From the IMG/VR virus record IMGVR_UViG_3300027759_002865, positions 1 to 23,109 of that record: a stretch of 23,109 bases of DNA; one strand, given 5' to 3'. The number at the start of each line of letters is the position of its first letter. Position 1 is the first letter of the stretch. Below are positions 2,560 to 7,420 of the stretch, piece after piece. Source of the DNA: a virus. The notes beneath the pieces are model-generated. The model searched no databases. It was not told where the DNA came from and saw only the letters and a list, made by a program, of their open reading frames with translations. Position numbers and translations under genes: made by a program.

Positions 2560-2578
2560 CACAGACTGTAACACTAAT

Positions 2579-2601
2579 GTAATCGATACTACGGTAAATA
2601 T
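2579..2601 (+). promoter_or_regulatory. Composite promoter GTAATCGAT-N7-TAAATAT
   Basis: GTAATCGAT (2579-2587) is followed after exactly 7 bases by TAAATAT (2595-2601), 5 bases before the ATG at 2607. The same two blocks with the same spacing recur at 4248-4270. The second block is the core of the T4-type late box. The first block would lie roughly at -28 to -20 and may be an activator-binding or extended promoter element. Confidence 0.5.
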
Positions 2602-2629
2602 TTGTTATGCAAAAAACTTACCGTAGTAT
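2586..2629 (+). repeat. 12-bp perfect inverted repeat around a start codon
   Basis: ATACTACGGTAA (2586-2597) and TTACCGTAGTAT (2618-2629) are perfect inverse complements separated by 20 bases. The left arm overlaps the promoter block and the right arm lies in codons 4-8 of the metallophosphoesterase gene. The ATG (2607) sits in the loop. It could be an operator for a dimeric repressor or an RNA hairpin that presents or hides the start codon, which has no visible Shine-Dalgarno sequence. Confidence 0.65.
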
Positions 2630-3491
2630 TTTTGTAAGCGATGTCCACTTAGGTACAAAAGACTGCAAGGCAGGACAACTAAACAATTTCCTCAAGCATA
2701 ATAGTTGTGACACACTATACCTTGTGGGAGATATAATCGACGCCTGGAAGATTCAACAGAACAAATGGCGGTGGAAACAGAGCCATACCAATGTGGTACG
2801 CAGAGTTCTCGGGCATGCCAAGCGTGGTACTAGAGTTGTATTCATAGCAGGCAATCACGATGAATTTCTAAGACCCATGATACCCTATGGGTTTAGTTTT
2901 GGACTAGTAGAAATACACAATCAAATAGAACACATAGGTGCAGACGGCAAACACTATCTAGTCACACACGGTGACCTGTTTGATGGCATCACTAGACTGG
3001 CACCGTGGATTGCGTTCTTAGGAGACAAGGCCTATGACTTTGTTCTTAGCCTCAACAATAAATTTAATTGGATTCGTCGTCGTATGGGTTTTGGGTACTT
3101 TAGCCTTAGCAAGTTCCTTAAGCACAAAGTTAAACGAGCAGTAGACTTTATATTCAAGTTTGAAGAAAATTTAGCCAATTACTGCAAGAAGCGTGGTTAC
3201 GATGGAGTCATATGCGGACACATACATCATGCAGAGATCAAAGAGATCAACGGTGTCACATACATGAATGACGGTGACTGGGTTGAATCATGTACAGCAC
3301 TTGTGGAGCATCATGATGGTCGCTGGGAAATCGTAACTTGGACCAAGGAGAGCGACCATGTGGATACTGATAATACTGGCAGTGCATCTAAACAATCCAA
3401 AAGACATTCCGGGAAAGGTAATGATAGAATTTCCTACCCACCAGGAGTGCGAGCGAGCACGATCAACAATGACCAGTTGGTTAAAGTTTGA
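2607..3491 (+). CDS. LpxH-like calcineurin-type metallophosphoesterase
   Basis: This 294-aa protein carries the complete two-metal phosphoesterase motif set: D12-V-H14, G41-D42, GNHD with N83-H84-D85, H121 in THGD, and GHIH with H205 and H207. The overall pattern (SDVHLG, YLVGDIIDAW, GHIHHAEI) fits the UDP-2,3-diacylglucosamine pyrophosphatase group (LpxH/COG2908), peripheral membrane enzymes of lipid A synthesis. The basic stretch FNWIRRRMGFGYFSLSKFLKHKVKR (about 153-177) could bind membrane or lipid. The last roughly 45 residues, after EIVTW, are low-complexity and overlap another gene in a different frame, so this tail looks overprinted. A glycosyltransferase follows, which supports an envelope role, but the true substrate is not proven. 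Initiation at 2607 lacks a Shine-Dalgarno and may be leaderless or hairpin-controlled. Confidence 0.85.
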   Translation: MQKTYRSIFVSDVHLGTKDCKAGQLNNFLKHNSCDTLYLVGDIIDAWKIQQNKWRWKQSHTNVVRRVLGHAKRGTRVVFIAGNHDEFLRPMIPYGFSFGLVEIHNQIEHIGADGKHYLVTHGDLFDGITRLAPWIAFLGDKAYDFVLSLNNKFNWIRRRMGFGYFSLSKFLKHKVKRAVDFIFKFEENLANYCKKRGYDGVICGHIHHAEIKEINGVTYMNDGDWVESCTALVEHHDGRWEIVTWTKESDHVDTDNTGSASKQSKRHSGKGNDRISYPPGVRASTINNDQLVKV

Positions 3492-3528
3492 TAGTTTTAA
3501 GGTGGTAGCAGAATGCAAGAAACAATAA
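3358..3528 (+). CDS. Nested small protein, 56 aa, hydrophobic N terminus
   Basis: This frame begins at ATG 3358 with a textbook ribosome-binding site (AAGGAG at 3345-3350, 7-base spacer) and ends at TAA 3526-3528. It overlaps the 3' end of the metallophosphoesterase gene by 134 bases and the start of the glycosyltransferase gene by 16 bases. The product opens with MWILIILAVHL, a short signal-anchor-like segment, followed by a soluble part with two cysteines (C31, C53) and KVMIEFP near 20-26 suggesting a beta strand. It may be a small membrane or exported protein with a disulfide. The good initiation site and sensible composition argue for a real gene, but no function is recognised. Confidence 0.68.
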   Translation: MWILIILAVHLNNPKDIPGKVMIEFPTHQECERARSTMTSWLKFDSFKVVAECKKQ

Positions 3529-4235
3529 AATTAAGTGACCAAATTACCATTGTGGTTCCCTGTAAAAATGAGGAGAACTACATACACTATTTGTTAGACT
3601 CTCTACGCAGTCAAAGCATAGATAATACTAGAATTATCATTGCTGACTGTTCTACAGACCGCACACGACAAGTTATACAAGACAACAAGGGTTTGTTAAA
3701 TGTAGAAATCATTGAGGGAGGTCCTGTGTCCTTGGCCAAGAACCGTGGAGCACAACTAGTTAACACTCCCTACATATTATTCATTGATGCTGATGTTCGC
3801 TTCTTCAAGAACACAGTAATTCGTGATGCTGTCAATTTAATAGAGCGTAAGAACCTAGACCTTATAGGATTGAATATCAAATGCTATGACAAGGACCTTA
3901 GAGCAAAGATTGGGTTTACTGCATTTAACTTAATCAATCATGCATTAAAACATTTCTCACCTTTTGCAGTAGGTGCCTTTATGTTAACTCGTCGAGATCG
4001 TTTTGAGGAGTATGGCGGCTTCCCGGAGCAGTTTGCAACATCAGAAGACTTCTTCTTGAGCCGCAAGTACAGCCCTCGAAAGTTTAGAATTGTTCGCCAC
4101 CACTTCGGACAAGATAGTCGCAGGTTCAAGAAGATGGGCTATATGGGTATGGCCAAATATCTAGTCAAGAATTTTGTTAATCGTAATAATAAAGCATACT
4201 GGGACAAACTAGATTCATCTAGGTACTGGAGTTGA
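3513..4235 (+). CDS. Family 2 glycosyltransferase (GT-A fold)
   Basis: This 240-aa protein starts with the GT2 nucleotide-sugar-binding strand ITIVVPCKNEENYI (about 11-24), followed by IIIADCSTDRT (41-51) and KNRGA near 76-80. The metal-binding DxD is D92-A-D94 in FIDADVRF, and the acceptor-side ED motif is E178-D179 in TSEDFFLSRK. It should transfer a sugar from a nucleotide sugar to a lipid, polysaccharide or protein acceptor at the cytoplasmic face; the donor cannot be read from sequence. The C terminus is basic and could associate with membrane, but no clear transmembrane helix is present. Start 3513 has AAGGTGG about 8 bases upstream. It sits next to the LpxH-like gene, suggesting host surface modification or virion glycosylation. 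Confidence 0.9.
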   Translation: MQETIKLSDQITIVVPCKNEENYIHYLLDSLRSQSIDNTRIIIADCSTDRTRQVIQDNKGLLNVEIIEGGPVSLAKNRGAQLVNTPYILFIDADVRFFKNTVIRDAVNLIERKNLDLIGLNIKCYDKDLRAKIGFTAFNLINHALKHFSPFAVGAFMLTRRDRFEEYGGFPEQFATSEDFFLSRKYSPRKFRIVRHHFGQDSRRFKKMGYMGMAKYLVKNFVNRNNKAYWDKLDSSRYWS

Positions 4236-4247
4236 TGTAATATTGTC

Positions 4248-4270
4248 GTAATCGATTATTCTTTAAATAT
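4248..4270 (+). promoter_or_regulatory. Composite promoter GTAATCGAT-N7-TAAATAT, second copy
   Basis: GTAATCGAT (4248-4256), 7 bases, then TAAATAT (4264-4270): identical blocks and spacing to the copy at 2579-2601, with unrelated bases between. The TTTAAATA box (4262-4269) matches T4 late TATAAATA at seven of eight positions. Transcripts would begin near 4275 and serve the acidic-protein gene at 4309. Confidence 0.55.
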
Positions 4271-4272
4271 AT

Positions 4273-4289
4273 GTGTGCCACAAGCACAC
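4273..4289 (+). promoter_or_regulatory. Leader hairpin before the acidic-protein gene
   Basis: GTGTGC (4273-4278) pairs with GCACAC (4284-4289) around a CACAA loop, lying between the late-type promoter and the AAGGAG ribosome-binding site (4297-4302). It may protect the 5' end of the mRNA or space the ribosome site. The same promoter-hairpin-ribosome site order recurs at 9704-9784 and 10747-10849. Confidence 0.5.
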
Positions 4290-4308
4290 TAACCACAAGG
4301 AGCTCAAA

Positions 4309-4623
4309 ATGAAACTTGAAATGACAGTACACGGGTTAAACGTTAATTTAGAATTAGATGATGCCTACAACGGCCTAGAAGTTTTACAGCATGTAAAAGA
4401 TCTAATTGACGAATTGTCAGCATACGACAAAGTCATGCTATCAATAGTATCAGCACCGGATGACGAAGACTTTGAAGAAGCAGAAGAAGAAAATGAAGAG
4501 TATGAAGATATGTCAGAGGAAGATCATGTAGCACAAGCAACATGGCCTTTTCCAGAAGGTGGATTGGATGATCAAGGTGCAGAAGTAGTTGCTTTTGTTG
4601 AACCAGAACAAAAAACAGCTTAA
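4309..4623 (+). CDS. Acidic small hypothetical protein, 104 aa
   Basis: The start at ATG 4309 is fixed by a perfect AAGGAG six bases upstream; the longer open frame from 4273 would begin inside the leader hairpin and is rejected. The first 60 residues alternate hydrophobic and polar residues (LEMTVHGLNVNLELDD, then a helix with a VLQHVKDLIDEL pattern) and may form a small alpha/beta domain. Residues about 62-83 are almost entirely Glu/Asp, and the tail is Gly/Pro/Glu-rich. Strongly acidic phage proteins often act as DNA mimics or nucleoid-protein antagonists, but this is only a possibility. It has its own promoter and strong ribosome site, so it is probably well expressed. Confidence 0.8.
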   Translation: MKLEMTVHGLNVNLELDDAYNGLEVLQHVKDLIDELSAYDKVMLSIVSAPDDEDFEEAEEENEEYEDMSEEDHVAQATWPFPEGGLDDQGAEVVAFVEPEQKTA

Positions 4624-5307: not shown

Positions 5308-6012
5308 ATGAATATAATAATCTATACCTTGGTGATGGTACAAATCACCATAGCCTGTGTTACCCTATACCTGCACAGAAGTCAAACACATAGAGCCGTA
5401 CAATTTCATCCTGCGGTTAACCATTTTATGCGAGCCTGGCTTTGGTTCACAACAGGTATGGTTACTCGTCAATGGGTGGCCATCCATCGTAAACATCATC
5501 AGCGTTCGGATCAAGAAGGTGATCCACATAGTCCACAGATCTATGGAATTTGGCGTGTGCTATTTGGCGGAGCATTCCTCTATCATTCAGCCAGCAAAGA
5601 CACAGCTATGGTCGACTCACTGAGCAAAGACTGTCCCAATGATTGGATTGAACGCAACCTTTACTCCGCACACAGTCGCTCAGGTATTCTTGTAATGCTG
5701 GTCGTAGACCTTTTGCTCTTTGGACCGTGGGGACTTGTAGTGTGGGGTATTCAAATGATATGGATTCCATTCTGGGCAGCAGGAGTGGTCAATGGATTGA
5801 GTCATTGGTGGGGATATCGTAACACAGATACCAAAGACACTAGCCGCAACATCATTCCGTGGGCTGTTTGGATTGGTGGGGAAGAACTACACAACAATCA
5901 TCACGCAGATGGTGCCAATGCCAAGTTCAGTCAGAGGTGGTGGGAATTTGATCTAGGTTGGATGTATATCTGCATCCTGCGCTTTTTTGGACTGGCCAAG
6001 TTACGCACATAA
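5308..6012 (+). CDS. Membrane fatty-acid desaturase (delta-9 / stearoyl-CoA type)
   Basis: This 234-aa integral membrane protein has the three histidine boxes of the acyl-lipid/acyl-CoA desaturase family: H23-RSQT-H28 (HxxxxH), H60-RK-H63-H64 (HxxHH) and H195-NN-H198-H199 (HxxHH). The family NGxSHxxGY element also appears (near 162-170, H166). Hydrophobic segments lie at about 3-20, 40-52, 126-160 and 218-230. These residues bind a di-iron centre that introduces a double bond into a fatty acyl chain using oxygen and an electron donor. At 234 aa it is shorter than many bacterial enzymes but keeps all boxes. It is transcribed rightward between leftward genes and has only a weak ribosome site. 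As a phage auxiliary gene it would alter host membrane fluidity; the acyl substrate form is unknown. Confidence 0.92.
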   Translation: MNIIIYTLVMVQITIACVTLYLHRSQTHRAVQFHPAVNHFMRAWLWFTTGMVTRQWVAIHRKHHQRSDQEGDPHSPQIYGIWRVLFGGAFLYHSASKDTAMVDSLSKDCPNDWIERNLYSAHSRSGILVMLVVDLLLFGPWGLVVWGIQMIWIPFWAAGVVNGLSHWWGYRNTDTKDTSRNIIPWAVWIGGEELHNNHHADGANAKFSQRWWEFDLGWMYICILRFFGLAKLRT

Positions 6013-7045: not shown

Positions 7046-7163
7046 AAGATCCGTAGACAGCTTTAGCTTCTTCTATACGGCCTTGACGAGCAAGACTTGC
7101 GGCAGCACGGGCCTGTGCAAATGATTCTAAAAATGACCAGATTGAGTTTAAGATTGTTTTCAT
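7044..7163 (-). CDS. Mini-protein, 39 aa, helical
   Basis: This frame starts at ATG 7163 and ends at TAA 7046-7044. Its product begins MKTILNSIWSFLESF and continues with an Ala/Arg-rich helix (ARAAASLARQGRIEEAK). The N-terminal half is amphipathic and could dock on a membrane or a protein partner; there is no clear signal peptide. Its ATG overlaps the TGA stop of the upstream mini-gene (ATGA), so the two are almost certainly translationally coupled. It is too short for a domain assignment, and no function is recognised. The coherent composition, the coupling and the shared promoter support a real gene. Confidence 0.68.
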   Translation of the reverse strand: MKTILNSIWSFLESFAQARAAASLARQGRIEEAKAVYGS

Positions 7164-7336
7164 AGATAAGATTCCTTTTGAGAATTAAATTGTCGGATGT
7201 AGTTTTCCAACTGTGCGGCATCGGTAATGCCTTTGGTGCTTAGATATTGATCTAAGCGGCTTTGATAGCTAGATCCTGGAAACATTTCACTTAATCGTTC
7301 CAAGATAGACTGCATTTTTTCTGATAGGTATTTCAT
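7160..7336 (-). CDS. Small hypothetical protein, 58 aa
   Basis: This frame starts at ATG 7336 behind a CAGAGGA ribosome-binding site and ends at TGA 7162-7160, overlapping the next mini-gene by ATGA. The product is helical with MKYLSEKMQSILERLSEMF at the N terminus, then a polar middle (SSYQSRLDQYL) and GITDAAQLENYIRQF, which resembles small helical proteins that bind partners through a conserved surface. There is no membrane segment. It leads a minus-strand operon (58-aa, 39-aa and the hydrolase) behind a sigma70-type promoter, so early expression is likely. The function is unknown. Confidence 0.7.
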   Translation of the reverse strand: MKYLSEKMQSILERLSEMFPGSSYQSRLDQYLSTKGITDAAQLENYIRQFNSQKESYL

Positions 7337-7391
7337 TTTGTGTATCCTCTGTGTATGTAGCGACTCATGGTTTCTACTGAGTATTTAGTTC

Positions 7392-7420
7392 ACTATACAT
7401 TACAGTTAGATTAAAATCAA
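7392..7420 (-). promoter_or_regulatory. Sigma70-type promoter of the leftward mini-gene operon
   Basis: On the minus strand TTGATT (7420-7415) and TATAGT (7397-7392) are separated by 17 bases, about 55 bases upstream of ATG 7336. It lies back to back with a possible rightward promoter at 7423-7451. Confidence 0.6.

Follow-up and report, generated by a model that had tools for sequence, protein, structure and literature searches.

Comparative analysis of the window, that is, the whole stretch of virus DNA studied here (23,109 bases), suggests as the best and a reasonably probable explanation that it carries hybrid promoters, in which a PHO box is joined to a phage late-type core, and that these would drive a phosphate-starvation regulon. 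According to this proposal, the PHO box, bound by the phosphorylated PhoB of the host, would sit in the place of the -35 element, and the phage late-type TAAATA core would follow it at a fixed helical phase. The putative regulon would comprise a PlcP-like metallophosphoesterase and a GT2 glycosyltransferase behind the first site, a small acidic protein behind the second and a small ORF behind the third, with pstS as a further member in relatives, and the virus may express these genes under phosphate scarcity. At the first site transcription is predicted to begin at or next to the AUG, that is, without a leader, and read-through transcripts from upstream would carry a hairpin burying the start. 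Since the start would be hidden in such read-through RNA, only the dedicated promoter is expected to yield protein. The box with its pitch, phasing and conservation, the match to E. coli, the link to pstS, the covariation of the hairpin and gp55 in large relatives are read from sequence; PhoB binding, a response to Pi, late timing, the use of gp55, translation without a leader, silencing by the hairpin and PlcP activity are predictions.

A phased tandem repeat in the window

An earlier note on this DNA had drawn attention to two blocks of the form GTAATCGAT-N7-TAAATAT, at 2579-2601 and 4248-4270, as being identical at 16 positions and preceding two different genes. Both points are borne out: exact copies of GTAATCGAT lie at 2579-2587 and 4248-4256, each followed after 7 nt (ACTACGG at site 1, TATTCTT at site 2) by TAAATAT (2595-2601 and 4264-4270), all on the plus strand, and the ORFs behind them start at 2607 and 4309. 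When the whole record, itself a fragment of 23,109 bases, is searched for the block, these two are its only exact copies, and a third member has diverged. The related claim that the other TAAATA boxes lack the block hence holds for exact GTAATCGAT but not for this third member, TTTAATCTAACTGTAATG..TAAATA, which shows the same spacing on the minus strand (7418-7382). The pair by itself is weak to borderline, because an identical 9-mer at an equal offset from two TAAATA boxes also turned up in 15 of 300 dinucleotide shuffles.

The conserved element extends beyond GTAATCGAT, which makes up one half of it; another half-site is present 11 bp upstream at both sites (half-site pairs TGTAACACTAATGTAATC at 2567-2584 and TGTAATATTGTCGTAATC at 4236-4253). 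The complete repeat has the form TGTAAY-N5-TGTAAY with an 11-bp pitch, in which GTAATCGAT constitutes the right half; the right half in relatives is GTAAT, and some relatives show the variant TGTCAC..TGTCAT. Relatives of the 2607 gene were collected from viral contigs (the best 80 of at least 599 stretches, with 64 distinct upstream sequences). TGT[AC]A pairs are found 11 bp apart in 35 of these 64 upstreams, and every other distance from 6 to 25 occurs in 0-2 of the 64. A position weight matrix (PWM) of 24 columns was derived from 29 non-redundant relatives with the window left out. Its only matches in the window that score at least 6 and have TAAATA at +7 are 2564+, 4233+ and 7418-, and 300 shuffles yielded none. 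A further match at 12843- (15.8), which lies within a gene and is without TAAATA, is probably due to chance. The elements of the three sites are as follows:

2564..2587, + strand: site 1 PHO-box-like repeat, TGTAAC-ACTAA-TGTAAT; contains GTAATCGAT; PWM 22.7, the best in the window
2595..2600, + strand: site 1 late-type TAAATA core, at +7 after the box (sequence, PWM scan)
4233..4256, + strand: site 2 PHO-box-like repeat, TGTAAT-ATTGT-CGTAAT; PWM 14.1, left half weak
4264..4269, + strand: site 2 TAAATA core (sequence, PWM scan)
7395..7418, - strand: site 3 PHO-box-like repeat, TTTAAT-CTAAC-TGTAAT; PWM 17.1, TAAATA at +7
7382..7387, - strand: site 3 TAAATA core (PWM scan)

Conservation and phasing of box and core

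A box scoring at least 9, together with an exact TAAATA within 30 nt, is present in 54 of the 64 distinct upstreams of the 2607-gene relatives, a count that is partly circular, as 29 of the promoters in it had served to train the matrix. The offsets of TAAATA in these 54, namely +7 in 27, +17 in 24, +18 in 3 and none elsewhere, are not circular, given that the spacing to TAAATA is absent from the matrix. The +17/+18 class is placed one helical turn beyond +7. A broader tally over the window and the 80 loci, not dereplicated and counting the overlapping registers of triple repeats, gave offsets of 7 (75), 17 (28), 18 (12) and others (4). The box plus TAAATA is missing in the remaining 10 of the 64 upstreams, among which L136, L171 and L177 have a boxed pstS promoter about 1.1 kb upstream, and L181 (18.7) and L179 (9.5) have kept a box-like score.

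The second site shows a comparable pattern, with 16 of the 17 relatives of the 4309 protein scoring at least 9 with TAAATA at +7, and the remaining one scoring 8.5, also at +7. In four large records (229-349 kb), scanned as separate 20-kb pieces, the matrix matches best at the phosphoesterase promoter; three of the four records have another promoter about 1.67 kb downstream of it, before a different gene. This conservation of both sites already contradicts the view that two late promoters resemble each other by chance. The shuffled pairs described above lend that view some weight, but it is very improbable in light of both the conservation and the three matrix matches in the window against none in the shuffles.

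Identity of the element and its probable reader

The PHO box has been defined as two 7-bp direct repeats with an 11-bp pitch, making up a 22-bp site (PMC4971064), and the 11-bp pitch of the phage repeats matches that definition. When run on regions of E. coli MG1655 (20-30 kb each), the phage matrix placed the known site at rank 1 for phoB, pstS and phoE, at rank 2 for ugpB and at rank 3 for phoA, and missed the PHO box of phnC. With its columns reversed as a control, the matrix scored 16.1 at a single unrelated position, 13129+ in the phoE region, and no more than 8.1 anywhere else. The element also takes the place of the -35, near upstream of the -10 or TAAATA: the distance from the 24-mer to the -10 is +6 for E. 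coli phoA and phoB, and that to TAAATA is +7 in the window. Furthermore, phosphate genes follow the box, namely the PlcP-like gene in the window and pstS at seven listed loci in relatives (L136, L149, L161, L171, L177, L190 and L202). The L149 protein passes the NCBIfam PstS equivalog model (390.8 bits, cut-off 339), that of L190 matches PBP_like_2, and the remaining five were assigned by visual inspection. Other genes behind the box in relatives encode rubrerythrin (L180), a radical SAM protein (L181) and proteins without a Pfam match. The 11-bp pitch, the ranks at E. coli phoB, pstS and phoE, and the pstS genes behind the box, taken together, suggest that the element is very probably a PHO box.

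The bacterial homologues of the phosphoesterase were surveyed at 79 of 80 loci, L303 being dropped because its start was too near the end. Only 3 of the 79 score at least 10 in the 250 nt upstream (in-gene control, 0), a looser pattern was found at 14 of 79, compared with 6 of 79 when the opposite strand was scanned and 0 inside the genes, and a pitch of 11 was seen in 17 upstreams, with other distances in at most 3. The support from these orthologs is moderate, since the boxes are few and some occur on the opposite strand too. In a study of cyanophages, predicted Pho boxes proved unreliable (PMC10976474).

The OmpR/PhoB-type DNA-binding domain (PF00486) was absent from all 14 phage records searched, several of which are fragments; the control for this search was positive in 10 of 14 named genomes. 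This absence makes the PhoB of the host the likely reader of the box, a conclusion in which we place good confidence. The earlier note had envisaged a separate promoter class, for example of middle genes, read by a phage activator. A class with an activator is indeed supported, but the core is of the late type, TAAATA, and not a middle-type -10, and the element fits PHO boxes in its pitch, its match to E. coli Pho promoters and its association with pstS. The MotA-box motif, TTGCTT, is not present before the core of either site 1 or site 2 as read from the sequence, and together with the lack of PF00486 in the 14 records this led us to reject a middle-promoter class with a phage activator. The more general version, that a phage-encoded activator of some other family reads the repeats, draws on the constant spacing seen before two or three of the phage's genes, which would suit any activator, and on the many phage ORFs without known function. 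Against it stand the recognition of E. coli PHO boxes by the matrix, the pstS genes behind the box, and the domain and motif searches, which make it improbable.

The genes behind the boxes

The following genes lie behind the three sites:

2607..3491, + strand: calcineurin-like metallophosphoesterase, PlcP-like (Pfam PF00149, 41.3 bits)
3513..4235, + strand: GT2 glycosyltransferase (Pfam PF00535)
4309..4623, + strand: acidic protein of 104 aa (no Pfam or PHROG match)
7160..7336, - strand: small ORF of 58 aa behind the third site (no Pfam match)

PlcP proteins are calcineurin-like phosphoesterases, and Pho boxes have been described at plcP loci (PMC4796936, PMC8528852, PMC8231724). By family and context, the 2607 protein is predicted to be PlcP-like, an enzyme of low-phosphate lipid remodelling. 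Its bacterial homologues (46-63% identity) are without functional names. An identification as LpxH was rejected, the two models scoring 45.7 (cut-off 134) and 34.7 (cut-off 190.35). The GT2 glycosyltransferase adjoins the phosphoesterase in the four large records examined and is probably co-transcribed with it. It was not equated with Agt, as the window enzyme is a GT2 and the Agt homologues described are GT4 (PMC8231724). The leader of the 4309 gene contains a Shine-Dalgarno sequence and the stem GTGTGCCACAAGCACAC; in the leader at 4273-4309 this stem reads GTGTG-CCACAAG-CACAC, and the leader also has a sequence that hardly varies among 17 relatives. A relative of the small ORF in L126 has the same box with the same spacing.

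The window also encodes a DNA/RNA non-specific endonuclease (803-1618) and a fatty acid desaturase (5308-6012), and the latter could belong with lipid remodelling. It has no Rfam match at gathering thresholds and no tRNA. Among 50,697 phage records there was no nucleotide match to the window, and the phosphoesterase protein matched 5 of them. In Pelagibacter phage Mosig, an isolate with a cultured host, the phosphoesterase homologue and a "putative phosphate ABC transporter" are divergently oriented (L375 2842-2991). TAAATA stands 5 nt before the ATG of this homologue, and the matrix detected no convincing box in Mosig (best intergenic score 7.6), nor any in S-SRM01.

The late-type core and the polymerase

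In the four large records, TAAATA is enriched upstream of ORFs, predominantly in the forward orientation (forward/reverse 73/14, 113/28, 81/22 and 55/16). A second promoter class, with the sigma70-like core TGCTATAATA, occurs upstream of ORFs in the large phages G004 and G002. The late sigma factor gp55 (phrog_234) was detected in 7 of 14 records and was not found in G003 and G006, among the closer large relatives, or in the window record, which is a fragment. With respect to the T4 late consensus, TATAAATA, the window sites have TAAATA without the leading TA, and the two bases leading TAAATA vary in the genomes of four relatives. No upstream element belongs to the T4 late promoter as described (PMC2988020), and at the phage sites a conserved, phased box stands upstream. 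On the strength of the core and of gp55 in large relatives, we consider it fairly probable that these promoters are used late, via gp55.

A less likely reading, though one to be taken seriously, is that these are ordinary host-type Pho promoters used by PhoB and sigma70, with TAAATA, or NTAAAT one base earlier, serving as a poor -10; expression of the genes would then be early, or would follow PhoB activity, with no need for gp55. This is consistent with the -10 of E. coli phoA and phoB, which lies one base from the position of TAAATA, with the reported recruitment of sigma70 by PhoB to promoters that have no -35 (PMC4496699), and with G006, which shows the same arrangement with no gp55 match. 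It is opposed by the exact TAAATA at phased offsets in the 54 of 64 upstreams (in a search that asked for TAAATA only), by the separate sigma70-like core that G004 and G002 possess and do not use here, and by the bacterial homologues, where TAAATA follows none of the 3 best boxes upstream of the 79.

PhoB is known to act via domain 4 of sigma70 (PMC4496699), whose place on the beta flap is taken by gp33 in T4 (PMC2988020), so that the pairing of PhoB with a gp55 polymerase is one for which we found no precedent. We offer only tentatively the suggestion that the host's PhoB~P directly activates the gp55 late RNA polymerase, either replacing the sliding clamp or acting alongside it. If true, these would be late promoters of the T4 type that carry a sensory element upstream, and late expression of lipid and phosphate genes would answer phosphate starvation.

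A hairpin and a probable leaderless start at the first site

The first site overlaps a predicted RNA structure:

2586..2629, + strand: hairpin, arms 2586-2603/2612-2629; -18.1 kcal/mol, z -4.3

The 5' arm overlaps the N7 spacer and the TAAATA core, the 3' arm lies in codons 3-8, and the stem of 12-13 bp holds the start codon in its apical part. Across 45 distinct arm pairs, own arms form 5.53 of 9 pairs versus 5.31 for the best of 2000 permutations, a test that is inflated by shared ancestry. The stem is kept (at least 7 of 9 pairs) in 21 of the 45 and is lacking in 24; among the 21 stem-keepers, a subset chosen for pairing, both partners of the pair have changed at five stem positions, for instance from C-G to G-C. 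As TTTTT follows the 3' arm, the hairpin could also terminate read-through RNA.

The start codon of the phosphoesterase lies 6 nt after TAAATA and has no Shine-Dalgarno sequence. The first ATG or GTG is found 4-7 nt after TAAATA in 52 of the 53 distinct upstreams that have TAAATA, and an SD-like motif is absent from 78 of the 80 relatives' loci. T4 late transcription starts about 6 nt after the core. With a start point expected at about this distance, the 5' end of the RNA would fall on or close to the AUG, leaving out the 5' arm, and the phosphoesterase transcript is probably leaderless. The same logic has been documented for T4 gene e, in which promoter-proximal RNA is spared an inhibitory hairpin (PMC3014915); as in that case, the start is hidden in the hairpin and the promoter lies inside its 5' arm. 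For an enzyme that could damage membranes, the covarying hairpin and the start without a leader would provide a second safeguard.

Comparison with known systems

Control of phage genes by host PhoB is already known from marine cyanophages: T4-type members carry genes under host PhoB, such as pstS of P-SSM2, and S-PM2d has been studied with a PhoB EMSA (PMC10976474). The promoters described here resemble these in that phage genes are put under the host's two-component phosphate system via Pho boxes. They differ in the motif, which is TGTMAY-N5-TGTMAY here and PyTTAAPyPyT/A for cyanobacteria as quoted in the cyanophage study (PMC10976474), in the phasing to a late core, and in the PlcP-like lead gene. 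The phages concerned are big, form a large group that is uncultured and have T4-type late features, and they appear to use such control with an E. coli-like box joined to a late core at a fixed helical phase. No report of phage plcP, or of Pho boxes at phage late promoters, was found among the matches listed from the open-licence PMC literature.

The locus is also comparable to bacterial plcP promoters (PMC4796936, PMC8528852), where a PlcP-type phosphoesterase stands behind a Pho box with an adjoining glycosyltransferase. The phage version is set apart by its TAAATA core, leaderless start and hairpin, and by a GT2 neighbour in place of the GT4 Agt (PMC8231724). The PlcP-like enzyme could release phosphate from membrane phospholipids.

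The TAAATA core, and gp55 in large relatives, are shared with the T4 late system (PMC2988020), unlike which there is an upstream element here. Since T4 late promoters are described without one, cooperation between PhoB and gp55 would represent a novel way to activate late transcription. The hairpin recalls those of T4 e, soc, 49 and I-TevI (PMC3014915), with a late promoter in the 5' arm and a start hidden in read-through RNA, but unlike the gene e group it would conceal a leaderless AUG with no Shine-Dalgarno sequence, and its promoter has a PHO box. A precedent for PhoB acting with an alternative-sigma polymerase is provided by sigma-VreI of P. aeruginosa (PMC4971064); that protein is a bacterial ECF sigma factor with its own -35/-10, and its box is not phased to a phage core as are the boxes of the window.
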